A stretch of DNA of 64,000 nucleotides from Roseicyclus sp. (GTDB taxonomy: Bacteria > Pseudomonadota > Alphaproteobacteria > Rhodobacterales > Rhodobacteraceae), in the NCBI RefSeq assembly GCF_018402035.1, contig NZ_JAGYJN010000001.1, positions 620,001 through 684,000 of the forward strand, given 5' to 3'. Below the pieces are notes generated by a model. The model made no database searches, had not been told where the DNA came from, and saw nothing but the letters and a program-made list of their open reading frames with translations. Of this stretch, positions 7,768-30,232 are shown piece by piece. Made by a program: the position numbers and the translations under genes. The first letter of the stretch is position 1, and every line of letters starts with the position of its first letter.

Positions 7768-7950
7768 TGCAACACACCCGCCAATCGACGGCTCCAAACA
7801 GAATCACTCGCCCCCGCTCTACCCGTCAGAATTGGTGAAATTAAGGCAATCGCCCAACCCGGCTTGCGCGGTGCGCCGCCACAAGGGCTTGCCAGCCCGG
7901 CTCACGCGGTGTAAGCGCGGCACATCTTCGCCACATGTCATATGAACGGC

Positions 7951-8028
7951 GTTCTCCCTCGTGGTCCGGGGGGCGGAGATGTGACACCCCGGCCTTTGAA
8001 AGACGCTCGCAACAGAACTGGAGTTTCC
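7951..8028 (+). promoter_or_regulatory. Candidate S6:S18 ribosomal protein leader upstream of rpsF
   Basis: Nested complementary segments GTTCT(7951)/AGAAC(8014) and CCGGGG(7966)/CCCCGG(7987), CCG-containing, directly upstream of rpsF. Confidence 0.35.
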
Positions 8029-8469
8029 ATGCCTCTCTATGAGCATGTGATGATTGCGCGCCAGGATCTCTCCGGCACGCAGGCTGAAGGGCTGGTTGAG
8101 CATTTCGGCACCGTCCTCAAGGACAATGGCGGCAATGTCGTCGAGACCGAATACTGGGGTCTCAAGACGATGGCCTACAAGATCAACAAGAACCGCAAGG
8201 GTCACTATGCCTATTTCCGCACCGATGCGCCCTCGGCCGCCGTGCAGGAAATGGAACGCCTGATGCGCCTGCATGAAGACGTGATGCGCGTCATGACCGT
8301 CAAGGTGGAAGCCCATGAAGAGGGTCCGTCGGCGCAGATGCAAAAGCGTGATGACCGTGATCGCGGCGACCGTGGTGATCGCGGCGACCGCGGTGATCGT
8401 GGTGATCGTGGTGATCGTGGCGACCGTGGTGATCGTGGCGACCGCGGTGATCGCGGCGACCGTCGCTGA
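8029..8469 (+). CDS. rpsF: 30S ribosomal protein S6 with Asp-Arg-Gly repeat tail
   Basis: [18 protein letters not shown]...; operon with rpsR and rplI. Confidence 0.96.
8359..8457 (+). repeat. 11 tandem 9-bp units (GAY CGN GGN) encoding (DRG)n
   Basis: Direct reading of the 3' end of rpsF. Confidence 0.95.
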
Positions 8470-16360: not shown

Positions 16361-17379
16361 TTAAGGCTGCGAAAGCAGGTCAAGCCAAAGCATTGCGGCA
16401 ATCGCAAGGCCCAGCAAGGCTAGGGTTTCAATCACGACAATCGCCAGATGGCCCGCGCCCACAGCGGTCAATGACTTGAGCGAGGTCTTGATCCCCAGCG
16501 CAGCAATCGCCGTGATCAGGCAGGCGCGCGACACCGTATTCACCTGTGCGACCACATCTTGCGGCAAATCCACAAGGCTACCCAAGGCGACCAGCGCCAG
16601 AAACAGCGCCATGAACCACGGCACAAGGGCGATCTTGCCTTGGCCAGAATTCAGCCCCGTGGCGCGCAGCACCAAGACGATCGTAATAAGCACCAGCGGC
16701 AACATCGCCACGCGAAACAGCTTGGTGACGGTCGCGATCTCGCCCGCTTGGTCAGAGACCGAAAACCCTGCGCCGACCACCTGCGCCACATCATGGATCG
16801 TGGCGCCGATCAAAAAGCCTTGCTGCAAATCCGAGAAACTAAGCGCTTGGAACAGCAAAGGATAGATGACCATGGCGATGGTCGACAAAGCCGTGACCGC
16901 AATAACGGTGAAAAGCGTATTTCCCTCGGATTTGTCATTGGCCGGGATCACGGCGGCAATCGCAAGGGCCGCCGATGCGCCACAGATCGCCACAGCACCC
17001 CCGTCAGCAGCGCAAAACGCCATTTCCGACCAAAAAGCGGCGCGGCCAGAAAGCCCGTGGTGATGGTAAGCGCGATCAAGCCAATCAAGACACAGGCGCC
17101 CAGAACGCCGATCTGCGCCAGATCATCCAGCACGATCCGCATGCCCAATAACCCAACACCTAGCCGCAGAATGAACTTCGCGGCAAAATCAACGCCCGCG
17201 CGGCAAGTGCCATCTTGGTATAGAAAGTTGAAGGCCATGCCCAACAACAGCGCAAAAAGCATCGCTGGTGCGCCGTAATGAGAGGCAAGAAAAGCCGCCG
17301 CTGCCGCAATGGTGGCCGCCAACATCGCGCCGGGTAGAAACATCGCGGCTTTTGCATGCAGGCGGGCTAGCGACGGCAT
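16361..17379 (-). pseudogene. YeiH/TauZ-like putative sulfate/sulfite exporter (UPF0324), apparent frameshift at 16998-17002
   Basis: ...FGRKWRFALLTG in one frame, then GGAVAICGASAALAIAAVIPANDKSEGNTLFTVIAVTALSTIAMVIYP in the next, characteristic of the YeiH family. Confidence 0.8.
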
Positions 17380-17491: not shown

Positions 17492-18601
17492 TCAGGCCGA
17501 CATTATCCGACCTTGTTCATCCAGCCTGACGGCCTGCCCTGTTTGGGCCGCTTGCTGCGCGGCAAGACCCATCTGGACCGCCCACAGACCATCGTTCAGC
17601 CCAACCTCGACATGGCCCTGCCCCCGCACGACATTGGCAAAGCGATCATGTTGATAAAAGGTTGATCCGTTATGATCGCCCGCCGCCAACAAGGTGGGGT
17701 CAACCGGCACCTCGATCAAATGCGGCCCCTTTGGGCTGCGCGGGCTGACAATCAACTGCGGCACCGGCGGCGCGCCAAGATGTTCGGGCCAGAACCGGCC
17801 CGGACCCGGCACAAGGCACTCGATGCGCGCATCTGGCCCTACGGCGGTGATTTCTTCTTGATAGCGCGCACCCTCGGCGAACATGCACAATTCCAGCATC
17901 GCGCGTGCGCCCCGCGCGAAATCGACGATCACATAGGCATTGTCCCAGATATCAGAGGGTTGGCCATCATAGCGCTCGTCGCGGTGGTTCACATCTTGCC
18001 CGCCCGAGGCCATGATGCGCACCGGGTTATCTTGCAAGATCACCCGCATCAGGTCGAAGAAGTGGCAGCATTTTTCCACCAGCGTGCCGCCGGTCTTGCT
18101 GTTGAATCGGTTCCAATCCCCGACTTTCTCAAGAAAGGGAAAGCGATGCTCGCGGATTGTCAGCATCTTGATGCCGCCGGTCACCGCTTGCGCTTGTTCG
18201 ATCAACGCGGCCACGGGGGGCATATAGCGATATTCCATCGCCACCCAGATCGGCGCCGGATAATCGAGCGTGGACAGCACGGCAAAATCGGCAGGGTCGG
18301 TGAAGACAGGCTTTTCAACCAAAATCGGCAAAGGGCGCGTGGCTGCGATCTCGCGGATTTGGGGCACATGTAGGTAATTTGGGCTGGCGATCAGCAGGGC
18401 ATCCAAACCCGGACATGCCAAAAGCGCGGCGATGGAGGGCATGAATTGCGCATCCGGCACAAGTGCTGCAGCGCGCGCGCGCATTGCAGCATCAGGTTCG
18501 AAAATCGCGGCCACTTCGGCCCCGTCGATCAGCGCAAGGTTGCGCAGATGCTCTTGCCCCATCATGCCGCAACCGATGATGCCGTATCGTATCTTATCCA
18601 A
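17492..18601 (-). CDS. Gfo/Idh/MocA-family protein; candidate NAD-dependent sulfoquinovosidase (GH188-like) by context
   Basis: Rossmann GIIGCGMMGQEHLRN; VEKPVF; EHRFPFLEKVGDWNRFNSKTGGTLVEKCCHFFDLMR; co-oriented with GntR next to SMO-like genes. Confidence 0.85.
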   Translation of the reverse strand: MDKIRYGIIGCGMMGQEHLRNLALIDGAEVAAIFEPDAAMRARAAALVPDAQFMPSIAALLACPGLDALLIASPNYLHVPQIREIAATRPLPILVEKPVFTDPADFAVLSTLDYPAPIWVAMEYRYMPPVAALIEQAQAVTGGIKMLTIREHRFPFLEKVGDWNRFNSKTGGTLVEKCCHFFDLMRVILQDNPVRIMASGGQDVNHRDERYDGQPSDIWDNAYVIVDFARGARAMLELCMFAEGARYQEEITAVGPDARIECLVPGPGRFWPEHLGAPPVPQLIVSPRSPKGPHLIEVPVDPTLLAAGDHNGSTFYQHDRFANVVRGQGHVEVGLNDGLWAVQMGLAAQQAAQTGQAVRLDEQGRIMSA

Positions 18602-18611
18602 GATCTTGTCC

Positions 18612-19313
18612 TTACTTCAGTCTGACGGTGTAGCGCACGCGGTCGGGGTCGTACCAAGTCCACGAGGCTTCGACGGGGGCATTCTCATAGCCATAGCTGA
18701 CACGGGTGACCATCGGCAGCTGGGTGCCAGCGGCATGTGGAAAATCGCGTGGCACCCAATCGGGCAATGGCCCCAGCCCCACACGGTCCTCGGCACGCGC
18801 AATGCGCAGGTTCAGGTTTCTGGCATAGAAATAATACAGCGACTCAGAGAGTTCTTCGGCCGATAGGCGCACGGCATAACTTGCATCAAGCCAGATTTCT
18901 TCCGCTGCCGCGATCGTGCCCGACAAGAAACGCAAGCGGCGAATACGGTGGCCATGCGTATGTGGGCCGAAATAGGGGAGTGCCGGGTTCTTGGGCAAAA
19001 GGTCCACCGCCAGCACACGCGCCTGTGGCAGACCGCCACCCTCGACCAGTTCCAAGCGCAAGAATGCATAGACCGAACCGGTGTCTGCCTTGGTGCGGAT
19101 ATAGTTACCCGATCCCTGCACCCGCTCCAACAATCCCTTCTCCTGAAGCGAGGCGAGCGCCTTGCGCAATGTGCTTACCGCGATACCGAAACTTTCAGCC
19201 ATATCGCGTTCAGGCGCGAGCCTTTCGCCATCCACAAGGCGGCCCGCCGCGATGTCGCGAATGATGAGTTCTGTGATCTGCATATGCAGCGGCAGAGCGC
19301 CGAGTTTATCCAC
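18612..19313 (-). CDS. GntR family regulator (HutC/UTRA type)
   Basis: MDKLGALPLHMQITELIIRDIAAGRLVDGERLAPERDMAESFGIAVSTLRKALASLQEKGLLERVQGSGNYI. Confidence 0.9.
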   Translation of the reverse strand: MDKLGALPLHMQITELIIRDIAAGRLVDGERLAPERDMAESFGIAVSTLRKALASLQEKGLLERVQGSGNYIRTKADTGSVYAFLRLELVEGGGLPQARVLAVDLLPKNPALPYFGPHTHGHRIRRLRFLSGTIAAAEEIWLDASYAVRLSAEELSESLYYFYARNLNLRIARAEDRVGLGPLPDWVPRDFPHAAGTQLPMVTRVSYGYENAPVEASWTWYDPDRVRYTVRLK

Positions 19314-19418
19314 AGCCCCCTCCCCTGGACAGCTAGGATCGCAAAATTGATATGCTATTGATTTACAAAAATCCGGGTGCTACGCAATTGCAAAAGCGAC
19401 ACGGAGAGCAAGATTTCA

Positions 19419-20576
19419 ATGACCATCGTGCCAGTCACATCGGCCGATTTGAACGGCGCAGAGGTCAGCTGGTTCGCAGCGCTTTGCTCGGATGATTACC
19501 AATTTCTGGGCGTGCCGGACGGGCAGCTTCGCTCAAGTTGGGAGCATTGTTCCAGCATCGTCAAAACGGCCGAGCGCAACGGCTTTCGCAACATCTTATG
19601 TCCCTCAAGCTATCAGGTCGGCCAAGACACGCTGTCTTTCGTGGCGGGGTGCGCGCCGATCACCGACAAGATCAATTTCCTTGCCGCCATCCGCTGTGGC
19701 GAGATGCAGCCCGTGATGCTTGCGCGCACGGTGGCCACGCTTGATCACATGCTCAAGGGGCGGCTGACGCTGAATGTCATTTCCAGCGACTTCCCCGGCG
19801 AAGTGGCCGACAGCGCCTTTCGCTACAAGCGCAGCCACGAGGTGGTCGAAATCCTGCGACAGGCATGGACGCGCGACGAGATCGCATATGATGGCGACAT
19901 CTATCAGATCAGCAAGCTAAGCGCCGATCCCGCCCGCCCCTATCAACAAAACGGCGGACCGCTTTTGTACTTCGGCGGCTATAGCCCCGATGCGCTCGAG
20001 CTGTGCGGCGCGCAATGCGACGTCTATCTCATGTGGCCCGAGCCGCGCGAAGTTCTAGCCCAACGCATGCGCGACGTGCATGCCCGCGCCGCCGCCCATG
20101 GCCGTACGCTCGATTACGGCCTTCGGGTGCATATGATCGTGCGCGATACCGAAGCCGAGGCCCGCGATTACGCGGAACACATCGCCAGCAAGCTTGACGA
20201 TGAATATGGCAAACTCATCCGCGAGCGCGCCCATGACAGCATCAGCCTCGGCGTGGCCCATCAAGCGCGCGCACGCGAGCTGGCCGATAAATTCGGCTAT
20301 GTCGAACCCAATCTTTGGACTGGCATCGGACGCGCGCGCTCTGGCTGTGGCGCAGCACTTGTGGGCTCTGTCGATCAGGTGCTCAGCAAGATCGAAGATT
20401 ACCGCAAGATGGGTATCCGCGCCTTTATCTTCTCGGGCTATCCCCATCATGACGAGGCCGAGATTTTCGGGGCCAAGGTCATGCCGCATCTGCAAACCGT
20501 CTCGCTGCCCCATATCTATGGCCGCGTGCCAACGGATACCCCTGCAACACCTCTTGGAAATGGACCGCGCCGCTGA
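19419..20576 (+). CDS. smoC: LLM-class FMNH2-dependent monooxygenase, SmoC (sulfoquinovose monooxygenase)-like
   Basis: SsuD-like; VSWFAALCSDDYQFLGVPDGQLRSSWEHCSSIVKTAERNGFRN...; followed by SmoB-like AKR and flavin reductase. Confidence 0.7.
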   Translation: MTIVPVTSADLNGAEVSWFAALCSDDYQFLGVPDGQLRSSWEHCSSIVKTAERNGFRNILCPSSYQVGQDTLSFVAGCAPITDKINFLAAIRCGEMQPVMLARTVATLDHMLKGRLTLNVISSDFPGEVADSAFRYKRSHEVVEILRQAWTRDEIAYDGDIYQISKLSADPARPYQQNGGPLLYFGGYSPDALELCGAQCDVYLMWPEPREVLAQRMRDVHARAAAHGRTLDYGLRVHMIVRDTEAEARDYAEHIASKLDDEYGKLIRERAHDSISLGVAHQARARELADKFGYVEPNLWTGIGRARSGCGAALVGSVDQVLSKIEDYRKMGIRAFIFSGYPHHDEAEIFGAKVMPHLQTVSLPHIYGRVPTDTPATPLGNGPRR

Positions 20577-21463
20577 TGGACCGCTCTGACCTGACCCCCG
20601 ATCTGTCGCTGTCGCGCATTGTCTATGGCATGTGGCGGCTTGGCGATGACGCCGACACTTCGCCTGCCCATGTGCAAGCAAAGGTCGAAGCCTGCCTTGC
20701 GCAAGGTATCACCACCATGGATCAGGCCGATATCTATGGCGGCTATACCGCCGAAGACATCTTGGGTGACGCTTTGCGGGCCGCACCCGGGCTGCGCGAC
20801 CAGATCGAGATCGTGACCAAATGCGATATCGTGGCCCCGGTTGGGCGTCACGCGGGCGCGCGCGTCAAATATTATGACACATCAAGCGCCCATATCACCG
20901 CCTCGGTCGAGGCCAGCCTAAAGGCGATGGCGACCGACTGGATCGACCTGTTGCTGATCCATCGGCCCGACCCGCTGATCAACCCCGATGAAACCGGTGC
21001 AGCACTGGACCGGCTGGTTGATTCTGGCAAAGTGCGCGCGGTGGGCGTGTCGAATTTCCGCCCTTGGGATACCGACCTGTTGCAATCGCGGATGGACGCG
21101 CCGCTGACCTGTAACCAGATCGAGTTGAGCTTGATGGCACATGAAGCCTTGGTGAATGGCGATCTCGCGCATTTGCACCAGCACAGGATTGCCCCCATGG
21201 CATGGAGCCCCTTGGCCGGCGGCAAAATGGCCGGGGCCGGCGCGCTGCGCGAAAAACTCGACGCGCTGGGGGCGGCGGCGGATACAGATTGGAGTGCCGT
21301 GGCCATCGCGTGGCTTTTGCATCATCCGGCGGGCATCTTGCCAGTTCTCGGCACCAACAACCTTGACCGCATCGCGCGTATTTCTGACGTGCTGCGCGTG
21401 CCGATGGACCGTCAAACATGGTACGAGCTTTACACGCTCGCCTTGGGGCGCGAGGTCGCATGA
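20576..21463 (+). CDS. smoB: Aldo/keto reductase, SmoB (6-oxoglucose reductase)-like
   Basis: LSRIVYGMWRLGDDADTSPAHVQAKVEACLAQGITTMDQADIYGGYTAEDILG...; overlaps the stop of the preceding gene. Confidence 0.75.
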   Translation: MDRSDLTPDLSLSRIVYGMWRLGDDADTSPAHVQAKVEACLAQGITTMDQADIYGGYTAEDILGDALRAAPGLRDQIEIVTKCDIVAPVGRHAGARVKYYDTSSAHITASVEASLKAMATDWIDLLLIHRPDPLINPDETGAALDRLVDSGKVRAVGVSNFRPWDTDLLQSRMDAPLTCNQIELSLMAHEALVNGDLAHLHQHRIAPMAWSPLAGGKMAGAGALREKLDALGAAADTDWSAVAIAWLLHHPAGILPVLGTNNLDRIARISDVLRVPMDRQTWYELYTLALGREVA

Positions 21464-21981
21464 TGGACGATGGCGGGCAAATGCACCCTGTCGAAATCAT
21501 CCCCGGCCCAGACACGCAGCGTGCCTTGCGTGATGCCTTGGGCTGCTTTGCCACGGGCGTCACGCTCATCACCATCGAAAGCACGGATGGGCCGATGGGC
21601 TTTGCCGCCAATAGCTTTGCGGCCGTCTCGCTGGACCCGGCACTCGTGCTGTGGTCACCTGCCAAATCCTCGCGCCGCTTTGGCCATTACATCGCAGCCA
21701 CCCATTACGCGATCCATGTGCTGTCGCGTGACGATTTTGGGCTGTTAGATCGTTTCGCCCGCGATGGCGCAGGTTTTGCGGGGCTGGCATTTTCGCGCAA
21801 TGCCGAGGGGGTGCCGGTGCTGGATCAGGCCGTGGCACGGTTCGAATGTCGCCAACATGCCACGCATGACGGCGGCGATCACATGATCATTGTCGGTGAA
21901 GTTTTGCGCGCCACCCATCGCGGCGGCGCGGCCTTGGTGTTTCATCAGGGACAATACGGCGGCTTCAACCCACTGGGCTAG
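21460..21981 (+). CDS. smoA: Flavin reductase, SmoA-like partner of LLM monooxygenase
   Basis: ALGCFATGVTLITIESTDGPMGFAANSFAAVSLDPALVLWSPAKSSRRF; ATGA overlap with AKR. Confidence 0.75.
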   Translation: MMDDGGQMHPVEIIPGPDTQRALRDALGCFATGVTLITIESTDGPMGFAANSFAAVSLDPALVLWSPAKSSRRFGHYIAATHYAIHVLSRDDFGLLDRFARDGAGFAGLAFSRNAEGVPVLDQAVARFECRQHATHDGGDHMIIVGEVLRATHRGGAALVFHQGQYGGFNPLG

Positions 21982-22032: not shown

Positions 22033-22623
22033 ATGCAGGCGCTCATCGCCCTGTCCAAGCTTGTGGCATTGGTCAATGCCGGCGCGCTGACAATCGGCCG
22101 CTGGCTCGGGGCGTTTTGCATTCTGTTGATGGTCATCGTCATCCTGACACAGGTGTTTTTCCGCTATGTGATCGGCCTTGGCCTGCCATGGCCGGAAGAG
22201 GCTGCGCGCTTTTTGATGCTCTGGTCCGCAGGTTTGATGATCGGGACAGCCTACCGCCGCGGCGGGTTCGTGGCGATTGATCTTATGGTCGCCTTGTTGC
22301 CCCGCCTCTTGCGGCATCTTCTGACATTGACGCTTTTTGCCTTGGCGCTGATCGTGTTGTGGAAAGCATGGCAAATCGGTCTGCGCGAAGTGTCTGGGCT
22401 TGCCGGTCGCTTTGGCACCGACAGCCTGAATGTGCCGACCAGCTGGGATCTGTCGACATGGCACAAGGTGCCGAAATCTTGGCAGATGATGTCGATGCTT
22501 GTGGGCATTGGTGCGCTGGTCATGGTGACGTTTGAATTGATCCTGCGCGAAGTGATCGCGCTCTTTGGTCGTGCGGGCGATCTGCCGCCCATTTCCGATC
22601 AAGTCGTGCTGGGGTCAGAATGA
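22033..22623 (+). CDS. TRAP transporter small permease (DctQ family)
   Basis: 4-TM protein with FFRYVIGLGLPWPEEAARFLMLWSAGLM. Confidence 0.92.
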   Translation: MQALIALSKLVALVNAGALTIGRWLGAFCILLMVIVILTQVFFRYVIGLGLPWPEEAARFLMLWSAGLMIGTAYRRGGFVAIDLMVALLPRLLRHLLTLTLFALALIVLWKAWQIGLREVSGLAGRFGTDSLNVPTSWDLSTWHKVPKSWQMMSMLVGIGALVMVTFELILREVIALFGRAGDLPPISDQVVLGSE

Positions 22624-22624
22624 C

Positions 22625-23914
22625 ATGCTGAGCTTTTTCCTCCCGGTCTTTCTGATCTTCCTCTTTCTTGGCCTGCCGGTGTTTTTCGCCCTGCTGGCTG
22701 CACCGGGCATCTTGCTTTGGGGCGCAGGGATGGAGCGCGACATCACGCTCCTGTATCGCAATGTCTATAACGGGATGGACAGCTTCCCGCTGATGGCGAT
22801 CCCGTTCTTCATGCTGGCGGGCGAATTGATGAACCGTGGCGGCATCACCATGCGGCTGGTCGAGTTCAGCCAAGCGCTTGTCGGCCATCTGCGCGGCGGG
22901 CTTGCGCATGTGAATGTGCTGTCATCGATGCTGTTTGCGGGCATGTCGGGTTCGGCTGTGGCGGATGTGTCGGCGCTTGGGTCCATGCTGATCCCCGCGA
23001 TGGAAAAGAACGGCTACAAAAAGCGCTTTGCGGCGGCGATCACGGCAGCAAGCTCGATCATTGGCCCGATCATCCCGCCCTCGGGCATCATGATCATCTA
23101 TGCCTATGTCATGGGTGAAAGCGTGGCCGCGCTGTTTCTGGCGGGCATCATTCCGGGCATCATGATGGCGGTCGGCCTGATGATTGCCCTGTCACTGCTG
23201 GCTGACCGATACGAGCTTCCGGCCGCCACAAAGCGTGCAAGCTGGGGCCAACGCGGACAGGCAAGCCTGCGCGCCTTTTGGCCGCTGATGACCCCGGTGA
23301 TCATTCTGGGCGGCATCCTTGGCGGCGTGATGACACCCACCGAAGCCGCGGCCGTGGCGGTGGGCTATGCTTTCATCGTGTCGCTGTTCATCATGCGCAC
23401 GCTCAAGCTGTCGGATATCCCCGATGTGCTGATGCGCGCGGGCATTACCTCGGCGGTGGTGCTGCTTTTGGTCGGCGCTGCGATGGCCTTCAAGACCGTG
23501 GCCGCAATGGCGCGCACCCCGGAACAGATGGCCAGCATTATCTTGTCCCTTTCGGATAATGTGTTGATCTTGTTGTTCTTGATCAACCTGCTCTTGTTCC
23601 TTGTCGGCATGTTCTTGGATGCGGGCCCCGCGATTATCATCCTTGGGCCGATCCTTGGGCCGATCTTCATCGAACTGGGCGTCGATCCGGTGCATTTTGC
23701 CATCATCATGGCAGTCAACCTGACCGTCGGCCTTTTGACGCCGCCCATGGGGCTGGTGCTGTTTGTCACCTCATCCGTTTCCGGCCTCAGGCTGGAAACG
23801 TTGTCCAAGGCGATCTTGCCGTTTCTGGCGGTTCAGATCGTCGTAATTTTTCTACTCACCTACATCCCCGCACTGACGCTCACGATCCCGCGTCTGTTCG
23901 GGTTTGTTCAATGA
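22625..23914 (+). CDS. TRAP transporter large permease (DctM family)
   Basis: AGMSGSAVADVSALGSMLIPAMEKNGY; LTPPMGLVLF. Confidence 0.95.
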   Translation: MLSFFLPVFLIFLFLGLPVFFALLAAPGILLWGAGMERDITLLYRNVYNGMDSFPLMAIPFFMLAGELMNRGGITMRLVEFSQALVGHLRGGLAHVNVLSSMLFAGMSGSAVADVSALGSMLIPAMEKNGYKKRFAAAITAASSIIGPIIPPSGIMIIYAYVMGESVAALFLAGIIPGIMMAVGLMIALSLLADRYELPAATKRASWGQRGQASLRAFWPLMTPVIILGGILGGVMTPTEAAAVAVGYAFIVSLFIMRTLKLSDIPDVLMRAGITSAVVLLLVGAAMAFKTVAAMARTPEQMASIILSLSDNVLILLFLINLLLFLVGMFLDAGPAIIILGPILGPIFIELGVDPVHFAIIMAVNLTVGLLTPPMGLVLFVTSSVSGLRLETLSKAILPFLAVQIVVIFLLTYIPALTLTIPRLFGFVQ

Positions 23915-23943
23915 TCTTCATATCCAAAGGGAGGAAAACCAAG

Positions 23944-25002
23944 ATGTTGAAGACAACCCTCAAGTCGATGTTGCTCGCGACAATGTTGGTCGCACCGGTG
24001 ACAACGGCTTTCGCGCAAGAGATTATGCTGCGCGCAACCGCGACCTCGAACGATCAAGACGAGGATTATGACGGTCTCGTCGTATTCAAGAACTTTGTCG
24101 AAAACGCTTCGAACGGCGCGATCGGTGTCGAACTGTTCATCGGCACCCAGCTTTGCACCAAAGGCGATGAATGCTTGGCAGGCGTTGCAGACGGTTCAAT
24201 CGACATTTTCGTGTCGACCTCGGGCGGTGCGGCCGGTCTTTTCCCCTATATTCAGGTGCTCGACCTGCCCTATCTGATGAGCGATGACCGCGTGGCCGAG
24301 CATGTTCTGTCCGGCCCCTTCGTTCACGAAATGCGCGAACTGATGCTGGAAGATAGCGACGGGCTCATCCGTTTGATGACGGTCGGCAACACCGGCGGCT
24401 GGCGCAGCTACGCAAACACCCAGCGCCGCATCGAAACGCCCGCCGATCTGGCAGGCCTGCGGATGCGGACCGTTCCCGCCGATCTGCCGCAGACATTGGC
24501 AACAGCGCTTGGCGCGGCCCCCACGCCGATTGCATGGCCCGAGTTGTTCACCTCGCTGCAAACCGGCGTCGTGGAAGGCACCGCAAACGGTATCACCGAC
24601 ATCATGAACATGCGGTTCACCGATGCCGGGCTGAAATACCTCACGCTCGACAACCACAGCTACATGGGCGCGTTCTGGTTCATGAATAACGAGCGCTTCC
24701 TTGGCATGTCCGATGAACATAAGCGCATCGTGATCGACGGCTTTGCAGCCCTGCAACAGGCCACATTCGCAAGCCCCAAGCGCAAGGAAATCGCCGCCTA
24801 TGAGGCCTTCCGCGCCGCCGGCGGCGAGATCTATGTGCCCACCGAAGCGCAGCGCACCATGTTCATGGAAGCCGCGGCACCTGCCTTTGATTGGTTCCGC
24901 GCGAATGTCCGCCAAGGGCCCGAGGTTCTGGACAGCTTCAGCGCCCATGCCGCCGCTGCGGCAGAGGCCATCGAAGCCGCCCGCATCGCGGATATGAACT
25001 GA
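23944..25002 (+). CDS. TRAP transporter substrate-binding protein (DctP family)
   Basis: Signal peptide; IDIFVSTSGG...; GLRMRTVPADLPQTLATALGAAPTPIAWPELFTSLQTGVVEG. Confidence 0.94.
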   Translation: MLKTTLKSMLLATMLVAPVTTAFAQEIMLRATATSNDQDEDYDGLVVFKNFVENASNGAIGVELFIGTQLCTKGDECLAGVADGSIDIFVSTSGGAAGLFPYIQVLDLPYLMSDDRVAEHVLSGPFVHEMRELMLEDSDGLIRLMTVGNTGGWRSYANTQRRIETPADLAGLRMRTVPADLPQTLATALGAAPTPIAWPELFTSLQTGVVEGTANGITDIMNMRFTDAGLKYLTLDNHSYMGAFWFMNNERFLGMSDEHKRIVIDGFAALQQATFASPKRKEIAAYEAFRAAGGEIYVPTEAQRTMFMEAAAPAFDWFRANVRQGPEVLDSFSAHAAAAAEAIEAARIADMN

Positions 25003-27699: not shown

Positions 27700-28980
27700 A
27701 TGCGACAAACCTGGCGATGGTTTGGCCCGGAGGATCGGGTCACAGTGCGCGACGCGCTTCAGGCTGGCGCGCAGGGCATCGTGAGCGCATTGCATCACTT
27801 GCCGCCCGGCGCGCCCTGGCCCTTGGACGACATCGCCAAACGGCAAGCGCAGATCGCAACGGCATCAGGCGGGGCACTCGCGTGGGAGGTGGTCGAAAGC
27901 CTCCCGGTTTCAGAGGCGATCAAAACACAAGCCTCCGATTGGTCGGCGCATATCGACGCCTACAAGGTCTCGCTCACAGCATTGGCCGCCGCTGGCATCA
28001 GCACGGTATGCTACAACTTCATGCCTGTGCTGGACTGGACCCGCACGAGCTTGCGTGCCGAACTCCCCTCGGGCGCGACGACGATGCGGTTCGACCTCGC
28101 CGCTTTCGCCGCTTTTGATGTGCATATCCTCAAACGTCCCGGCGCAGCAGAGGCATATACACCCGAAATCCTCGACAAGGCCAAAGCGGCTGCAGCGGGC
28201 ATGGATGATGCAGCAAGGCAGGCGCTTGAAAAAGCCGTGCTTGCTGGGCTTCCCGGATCAGCGGAAAGCTGGACACTCGAGGGGGTGCGCGCCGCGATTG
28301 ATACCTATGCCGCCTTGTCGTCCGATGCGCTGCGGCAAAACCATATCGATTTCTTGTCCGAGGTTGTGCCTCTCGCTGAACAGCTTGGCATGAGGCTTTG
28401 CTGCCATCCCGACGATCCACCCTTCGCGTTGCTTGGCCTGCCACGTACCATGTCGACGCTTGCTGATTATCAAACGGTGCTCGCTGCCGTCGATCATCCA
28501 AGCTTTGGTGCAACTTTTTGCACCGGGTCATTCGGCGCAAGGCCAGACAATGACTGCGTGGCCATGGCCAAGGCATTAGCGCCACGAATTCATTTCGTGC
28601 ATTTGCGCAATGTCGCGCGGGAAACATATCGCGTTCCATGCAGCTTCGTTGAATCCGAGCATCTGGCAGGCGATGTCGACATGGTCGGCGTGGTCGAGGT
28701 TTTGCTTGACGAAGAGGCGCGCCGCCGTGAGCAAGGTCGGGCGGATGACACCATCCCCATGCGCCCAGACCATGGGCAAGATATCCTCACAGATCTCATT
28801 GCAGGTGCGCAGCCGGGCTATCCTGCTGTCGGCAGGCTCAAGGGTCTTGCCGAGTTGCGTGGCGTGATGGCTGCCATTTCACACGGGCGTGCCAAGCGCG
28901 CCACAAAAGATCACGAGCAGACAAGAAACGGAAAACAGGATCAAACATTCCAGGGAGGAAACTATGAAAACATCCTATAA
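27700..28980 (+). CDS. uxuA: Mannonate dehydratase
   Basis: MRQTWRWFGPEDRVTVRDALQAGAQGIVSALHH; CCHPDDPPF; FCTGSFG; HFVHLRNV. Confidence 0.94.
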   Translation: MRQTWRWFGPEDRVTVRDALQAGAQGIVSALHHLPPGAPWPLDDIAKRQAQIATASGGALAWEVVESLPVSEAIKTQASDWSAHIDAYKVSLTALAAAGISTVCYNFMPVLDWTRTSLRAELPSGATTMRFDLAAFAAFDVHILKRPGAAEAYTPEILDKAKAAAAGMDDAARQALEKAVLAGLPGSAESWTLEGVRAAIDTYAALSSDALRQNHIDFLSEVVPLAEQLGMRLCCHPDDPPFALLGLPRTMSTLADYQTVLAAVDHPSFGATFCTGSFGARPDNDCVAMAKALAPRIHFVHLRNVARETYRVPCSFVESEHLAGDVDMVGVVEVLLDEEARRREQGRADDTIPMRPDHGQDILTDLIAGAQPGYPAVGRLKGLAELRGVMAAISHGRAKRATKDHEQTRNGKQDQTFQGGNYENIL

Positions 28981-30232
28981 ACTCTTGGCGGCAAGTTCTC
29001 TGTTCGCACTTGCGGCTGGGTCTGCCGCGGCGCAGACCGAACTGCGTATGATGTGGTATAATGACGGCATCGAAGGCGAAGTGATGCAGTCGCTCCTCGA
29101 TGGCTTTCATCAAGCCCATCCCGACATCAACGTGACCCTCGACGTTGTTCCCTACCAGATGGTTTTGGAATCCTTGCCGATCCAGCTTGCGGCTGGCAAT
29201 GGCCCTGACATCGCGCGGGTGACTGACCTTGGCGGCTTGTCCCAGTACTATCTGGATCTGCGTCCACATGTTCAGAACCCGGAATACTGGGAAACGAACT
29301 TTGGTCCCTTCCTGTCCTGGCTTGATCCCGATGGCGACGCGATCAACGGCTTCATGACGCAGCTGACCGTGACCGGCCCCTATGTGAACCGCACATTGTT
29401 TGAACAGGCCGGTATCGATATGCCCGGCGCGGGCGCAACATGGGACGATTGGGCAACCGCGGTAAATGCTGTGGCCAAAGCGTTGGATATCCCAATTCCC
29501 ATGGCATGGGACCGCTCGGGTCACCGCGTTGCAGGCCCAGCAATCTCGCAAGGCGCGATGATGTTCGATGCCGAGGGCGCACCCGCTTTGGTGGACGATG
29601 GGCTGAAGCGCATGGCGCAGATGCTCTATGACTGGCACCAGGACGGCACCATGTCGAAAGAGCTTTGGGGCTCTGTTTCCGGCTCGACCTACCTTGGTGC
29701 GAACGAGGATTTCGCCAACGCCAACGTCGTGATGTATATGTCCGGCTCTTGGCAGATCCCGCAGTTTACCTCGACGATCGGCGATGCCTTTGATTGGTGG
29801 GCTGTCCCCGCGCCTTGTGGTGCCTCTGCCTGCACCGGCATGCCCGGCGGCGCTGCGCTTGTGGCCATCGGGGATACCGAGCATCCCAAAGAAGTTGGCA
29901 TCTTGATGGACTATCTGGCGCAAGAAGAGGTCTTGGCCGAGTTCTATGGCCGCACCCTGTTCATTCCGGGTCACCTTGGCCTTGCAAGCAGCGGCATCGA
30001 TTTTGCCACGGATGACCCCCGCGCGGCCCATGCCTTGTCAACCTTCGCCGCAGCGGTGCCGACGATTTCACCGACAGCCTTCCAACTGCAAGGCTACCCG
30101 TCCAACCGCGTGTTGTTCAACGCGCTCATCTCGCGCCTGAACGAAGCCATCGTGGGTGAATTGACCCTCGAGGATGCCTTTGCCCGGATGGAAGAAGACG
30201 TCGCGAACCAACTGGCCGAGAGCGGTCGCTGA
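28964..30232 (+). CDS. ABC sugar transporter, extracellular solute-binding protein
   Basis: Signal peptide; family-1 SBP-like; adjacent UgpA/UgpE-type permeases. Confidence 0.9.
   Translation: MKTSYKLLAASSLFALAAGSAAAQTELRMMWYNDGIEGEVMQSLLDGFHQAHPDINVTLDVVPYQMVLESLPIQLAAGNGPDIARVTDLGGLSQYYLDLRPHVQNPEYWETNFGPFLSWLDPDGDAINGFMTQLTVTGPYVNRTLFEQAGIDMPGAGATWDDWATAVNAVAKALDIPIPMAWDRSGHRVAGPAISQGAMMFDAEGAPALVDDGLKRMAQMLYDWHQDGTMSKELWGSVSGSTYLGANEDFANANVVMYMSGSWQIPQFTSTIGDAFDWWAVPAPCGASACTGMPGGAALVAIGDTEHPKEVGILMDYLAQEEVLAEFYGRTLFIPGHLGLASSGIDFATDDPRAAHALSTFAAAVPTISPTAFQLQGYPSNRVLFNALISRLNEAIVGELTLEDAFARMEEDVANQLAESGR

Follow-up and report, generated by a model that had tools for sequence, protein, structure and literature searches.

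How does a bacterium gain access to sulfoquinovose (SQ) glycosides when the cluster that would degrade the sugar encodes no classical glycosidase? The question is raised by the window, a 64,000-nucleotide stretch of the genome of Roseicyclus sp. in which genes of the sulfo-SMO pathway lie beside a gene for a Gfo/Idh/MocA protein. The answer favored here, with a probability of about 0.95 and on the evidence of sequence, is that this gene encodes a GH188 NAD+-dependent sulfoquinovosidase, an SqgA orthologue opening the sulfo-SMO pathway for sulfoquinovose. The GH188 family was described recently and acts on sulfoquinovose glycosides from plant and algal sulfolipid fragments. An NAD-dependent sulfoquinovosidase had been suggested in the initial annotation, and sequence, active-site residues, tree placement and neighborhood all support that suggestion.

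The sqgA-like gene (17492-18601) is an open reading frame for 369 amino acids with a TTG start and a TGA stop. It was located correctly from the beginning but had been given no strand, which is corrected here to minus (18601 to 17492). Its prediction as a GH188 enzyme draws on phmmer matches to 8qc3, 8qc2 and 8zn9, residue mapping, conservation and a tree. Like GH188 members, the protein has a two-domain Gfo/Idh/MocA architecture with an NAD-binding Rossmann domain (Pfam PF01408 GFO_IDH_MocA, 4.3e-17; PF02894 GFO_IDH_MocA_C, 4.9e-20). The gene for a GntR-UTRA transcriptional regulator lies upstream (18612-19313, minus; PF00392, PF07702), and 10 bp separate its stop from the start of the GH188 candidate. 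The reading frame, its domains and this neighbor thus agree with the earlier description of a Gfo/Idh/MocA protein in a divergent GntR arm.

Diverging from this minus-strand pair is a plus-strand operon encoding SmoC, SmoB, a flavin reductase and a TRAP transporter. The first gene (19419-20576; PF00296) encodes an FMN-dependent sulfoquinovose monooxygenase of the SmoC/SquD type; the open reading frame as listed starts at a GTG at 19377, but alignments, which begin at query residue 15, favor the ATG at 19419. In phmmer searches it matches 7olf (3.3e-226) and 7oh2 (3.4e-220) over its full length, with 1e-58 the best value for any other alkanesulfonate monooxygenase structure. The second (20576-21463; PF00248) encodes a SmoB/SquF-type aldo-keto reductase, for the conversion of 6-dehydroglucose to glucose, with full-length phmmer matches to 7bby/7bbz at 2e-132 and the next structure at 7e-62. 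Sharma et al. 2022 are reported to have solved SmoC and SmoB from Rhizobium/Agrobacterium, and 7olf/7oh2 and 7bby/7bbz are taken here to be these structures. The flavin reductase (21418-21981, plus; PF01613), whose true start is probably near 21460, is proposed to supply reduced flavin to SmoC; its nearest NCBIfam model is FerA, with a score under the cut-off of that model. The TRAP genes, all on the plus strand, encode the small permease DctQ (22033-22623; PF04290), the large permease DctM (22625-23914; PF06808, TIGR00786 above cut-off) and the solute-binding protein DctP (23911-25002; PF03480). DctP is proposed as the receptor for SQ or SQ-glycerol and matches the nearest solved TRAP receptors at only 6e-34. 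The joint presence of SmoB and SmoC has been used as the criterion for sulfo-SMO (PMC13372026), and the two are encoded together here. Elsewhere in the window, a gene for UxuA (mannonate dehydratase) precedes one for an ABC solute-binding protein (27700-30232), and the two probably form a separate sugar acid operon; a gene at 7942-8469, probably for ribosomal protein S6, carries a long tail of tandem DRG (Asp-Arg-Gly) repeats at its end.

In A. tumefaciens, the known sulfoquinovosidase is a GH31 enzyme. No glycosidase was seen among the scanned proteins of the cluster, and the GH31 catalytic domain PF01055 gave no match in the Roseicyclus assembly or in 12 genus mates, while six control genomes matched. 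The early observation that the SMO-like island lacks a classical glycosidase such as GH31 is thereby confirmed, and a hidden GH31 enzyme elsewhere in the assembly was rejected on the same PF01055 search, although this absence is not absolute because the assembly is about 92% complete. The GH188 candidate, located in an SQ-degradation cluster without GH31, is the only sulfoquinovosidase candidate found in the assembly, and a GH188 gene is carried by all 13 genomes of the genus.

Similarity to SqgA extends over the full length of the protein. When all PDB chains were searched with phmmer, 8zn9 scored 570 bits, ArSqgA (8qc3) 390 and FlSqgA (8qc2) 385, and the next Gfo/Idh structure scored only 53. 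The match to a solved structure reaches E = 1.6e-170 across 358 residues, far beyond chance, and the two characterized SqgA proteins match at 1e-115 and 2e-114. Identity is 54.6% to FlSqgA and 53.9% to ArSqgA (356-357 residues); the SSN clusters of Kaur et al. 2023 were drawn at >53% identity (PMC10755693).

The SQ contacts of ArSqgA have been listed by Kaur et al. (PMC10755693). Every one of the nine SqgA residues with a contact to sulfoquinovose or an implied part in catalysis occurs in the window protein, where the alignment pairs K97, Y124, E151, R153, L157, K159, E176, H180 and H310 with SqgA K107, Y136, E163/164, R166, L170, K172, E189, H193 and H321. R153, L157 and K159 correspond to the sulfonate clamp R-L-K (R166, L170, K172), and the other six to the catalytic and sugar contacts. 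Numbering of the PDB chain and of the paper differs by an offset of 13 except at Glu163, which falls at 164 in the deposited sequence, a shift of one, and is taken here to be the glutamate of the EHRFPFL motif. The nine residues are unchanged in 96 of 96 rows (the window protein, 92 orthologues and three PDB chains), an invariance that is partly built in because similarity and matches to exact peptide patterns were used to choose the 80 named orthologues, and one pattern, EKCCHFFD, spans two of the nine. Two paralogues in the same genome, each 27% identical, differ: one (L003) keeps only K97 and L157 and lacks the other seven, and the other (L002) retains K97, Y124, R153, H180 and H310 but is missing E151, L157, K159 and E176. 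Membership in the Tyr-variant GH188 group, in which Tyr replaces Leu170 (PMC11465081), was considered and rejected, as the window protein has L157.

A phylogenetic tree splits the GH188 rows from these two Gfo/Idh paralogues with 100% SH-aLRT. The tree serves as supporting evidence and not as the main argument, because its outgroup consists of two very long-branched sequences (L002 and L003, out of four paralogues in the genome) and includes no GH109 sequence; a search for GH109 loci to serve as outgroup gave one sub-cutoff match in 190 genomes of the class and none in controls. The placement proposed in the initial annotation, among GH188 and GH109 members, was carried through for GH188, with the two Gfo/Idh paralogues outside; GH109 was compared by sequence match. 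The FlSqgA and ArSqgA structures sit on a long branch (2.34), which makes the exact position of SqgA within the GH188 tree unreliable.

These results bear on three other accounts of the gene. The protein could be an ordinary NAD-dependent dehydrogenase for sugars or inositol, of the IolG or anhydrofructose reductase type, with no glycosidase activity; it has the Gfo/Idh/MocA fold in common with such enzymes, and its best NCBIfam match is an inositol 2-dehydrogenase. That match, however, reaches 87 bits where the cut-off is 355, which places the protein outside IolG. Clustering with inositol or sugar dehydrogenases, named beforehand as the outcome that would speak against a sulfoquinovosidase, was looked for in part and not seen, as the paralogues fall outside and dehydrogenases of solved structure reach at most 53 bits, compared with 385-570 for the GH188 structures and 8zn9. 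The complete set of SqgA residues for catalysis and sulfonate binding, much of it missing from the two aligned paralogues, and a position in an SQ cluster otherwise devoid of a sulfoquinovosidase also argue against a dehydrogenase, and we regard this account as highly improbable. An NAD-dependent glycosidase resembling GH109 and active on N-acetylhexosaminides would have the fold and the oxidoreductive chemistry in common with GH188, and Kaur et al. (PMC10755693) note conserved histidines. Such an identity is scarcely credible for this protein, since GH109 structures are matched marginally and over the first 35-45 residues only (2ixa, E 0.0096, residues 3-48; 6t2b, E 1.2), the GH109 C-terminal domain PF21252 was not found by Pfam in the candidate, and the sulfonate-binding loop is of the GH188 type.

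The remaining account keeps the enzyme within GH188 and assigns it another sulfonated glycoside as main natural substrate in place of SQ-glycerol; a beta-linked SQ glycan and some other sulfosugar are examples. Because published GH188 enzymes act on either anomer, SQ glycosides of alpha and of beta linkage are conceivable, and Tyr-variant groups occur in different clusters (PMC11465081). The window protein has Leu (L157), the canonical residue, where that variant has Tyr, and SmoC and SmoB are encoded alongside; SQ is for these reasons the expected product, and a different main substrate seems very unlikely.

The GH188 sulfoquinovosidase reading thus suggests a route for this cluster, in which catalysis, substrate range, transport, regulation and export are all predicted. 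SQ or SQ-glycerol would be imported by the TRAP transporter. As published for FlSqgA and ArSqgA, bound NAD+ would oxidize C3 of the SQ glycoside with the help of K97 and H180, while R153, the backbone NH of L157 and K159 would hold the sulfonate. Loss of the C2 proton, on the Y124 or E151 side, would expel the aglycone; the resulting enone would take up water with H310 near C1, and NADH would re-reduce C3, giving net hydrolysis with recycling of NAD+. The released SQ would be desulfonated by SmoC together with the flavin reductase, and SmoB would then convert 6-dehydroglucose to glucose. The GntR protein would control both divergent arms through a shared operator.

A candidate for this operator lies in the 105-bp intergenic gap between the GntR and SmoC genes (19314-19418). 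Intergenic comparison delimits an operator- or promoter-like element at 19346-19371 on the plus strand, ATTGATATGCTATTGATTTACAAAAA, with the consensus ATTGATACACTATTGATCTACATCAA. Its core, ATTGAT-N5-ATTGAT, is present in 84 of 85 divergent intergenic regions from clusters of Rhodobacterales, Rhizobiales and Stappiaceae, and may serve as the operator of GntR, as a promoter element or in both roles. Three copies of the 12-base core are present in the Roseicyclus assembly, one of them consensus-like; the other two are identical to each other and have a different spacer, which suggests a local regulator. GntR-UTRA is a likely local regulator of the two arms. No description of a regulatory signature of this type was found in the literature searched, in a search that was incomplete.

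The layout of the locus is largely conserved among the 80 closest named relatives, a sample biased to close relatives in which the counts are lower bounds because several loci are cut by contig ends. The GntR gene adjoins GH188 in at least 79 of them, SmoC is nearby in 78, SmoB in 70 and the flavin reductase in 72; the arms are divergent in 74, and TRAP M and P genes accompany them in 48. The TRAP pair was not found in 25 loci with enough sequence, and in one of these (L017, 4452-9259) an ABC importer adjoins SmoC/SmoB. TRAP and ABC transporters thus appear, from gene content, to replace each other in GH188/sulfo-SMO clusters. TRAP transport of SQ had no recognizable description in the literature searched; that search was incomplete, and novelty is not claimed.

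Within the genus, ten loci were read at length. The TRAP layout of the window recurs in only one of them (G012), and the other nine encode SmoC and SmoB with no detectable flavin reductase or TRAP genes. In the tree, the window GH188, that of G012 and that of a Roseinatronobacter MAG (L006) group together, and the remaining 11 genus members form a separate group with 100% support. This pattern suggests, as its simplest reading, that the cluster has been exchanged between lineages; paralogy or mixed bins are alternatives. The odds are even that the locus works as a self-contained module for SQ glycosides, with intact SQ-glycerol imported for a cytoplasmic GH188 enzyme by a TRAP and not by the known ABC transporter, and with a GntR-UTRA repressor acting on both arms through one near-invariant ATTGAT-N5-ATTGAT operator. 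If so, the module would define an SQ importer of the TRAP type, together with a regulatory signature that can be searched for.

On the other side of the GH188 gene, on the same strand, is a frame-broken gene for a YeiH-type putative sulfate exporter (16361-17379, minus); no second PF03601 gene was found in the assembly. PF03601 matches both pieces and TIGR00698 the C-terminal piece; alignment to 13 homologues places the split near 17000, beside a G run, into two overlapping frames. A sequencing error may account for the break. Of the 80 related SMO loci, 15 have PF03601 genes, mostly behind the TRAP genes, and an intact YeiH-type protein could possibly export the sulfite or sulfate by-product. 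The PF03601/YeiH family is, we presume, linked to an exporter known from cysteate dissimilation. As cited in PMC9594981, a sulfate exporter in that process was reported by Rein et al. 2005.

GH188 is near-universal in Roseobacter sulfo-SMO clusters without GH31 (Kaur et al. 2023, PMC10755693), and the initial statement that such enzymes occur in SQ clusters agrees with that report. Because clusters of this kind had already been reported there, in close relatives of this bacterium, the window gene represents a correct prediction of a known kind. The less documented parts are the TRAP transporter, the near-invariant operator-like element and the frame-broken YeiH-type neighbor. With this cluster the alphaproteobacterium could draw on glycosides derived from sulfolipids, the form that SQ mainly takes in nature, without a classical GH31 enzyme. 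This is in line with published work, in which GH188 is the gateway enzyme of Roseobacter-type bacteria. For the annotation of such clusters, the operator-like element and the TRAP/ABC exchange are practical handles.

Characterized GH188 members come from Flavobacterium, Arthrobacter and Cryobacterium, and for the two of known structure, identity to the window protein is about 54%. The window protein has the same active-site and sulfonate-binding residues as FlSqgA (8QC2, 8QC8) and ArSqgA (8QC3, 8QC5, 8QC6), along with full-length homology, and the SqgA family is likewise known from SQ gene clusters without GH31 (PMC10755693). The host lineage differs, the cluster is of the sulfo-SMO type in contrast to the sulfo-EMP cluster of Arthrobacter, and the window protein is assigned by its sequence. 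The closest solved structure, 8zn9, has all nine residues and 69.8% identity (~357 residues); it belongs to a different branch of the alphaproteobacterial GH188 group, adjoining Ruegeria in the tree. Its entry is named only ‘Oxidoreductase, putative’, and no paper describing it was found in the literature searched. The GH109 alpha-N-acetylgalactosaminidases (6T2B, 2IXA) have the fold and the NAD-recycling glycosidase logic in common with the window protein, which lacks their C-terminal domain and any significant full-length match to them. As in the sulfo-SMO (sulfo-ASMO) pathways of Agrobacterium and Novosphingobium (PMC12890257, PMC9594981), SmoC and SmoB are encoded in one cluster, and a clustered flavin reductase is found in Agrobacterium as well. 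The window cluster differs in its GntR-UTRA regulator, in the GH188 gene where A. tumefaciens has a GH31 sulfoquinovosidase, and in a TRAP transporter where Agrobacterium/Novosphingobium-type sulfo-SMO employs an ABC SQ-glycerol importer.
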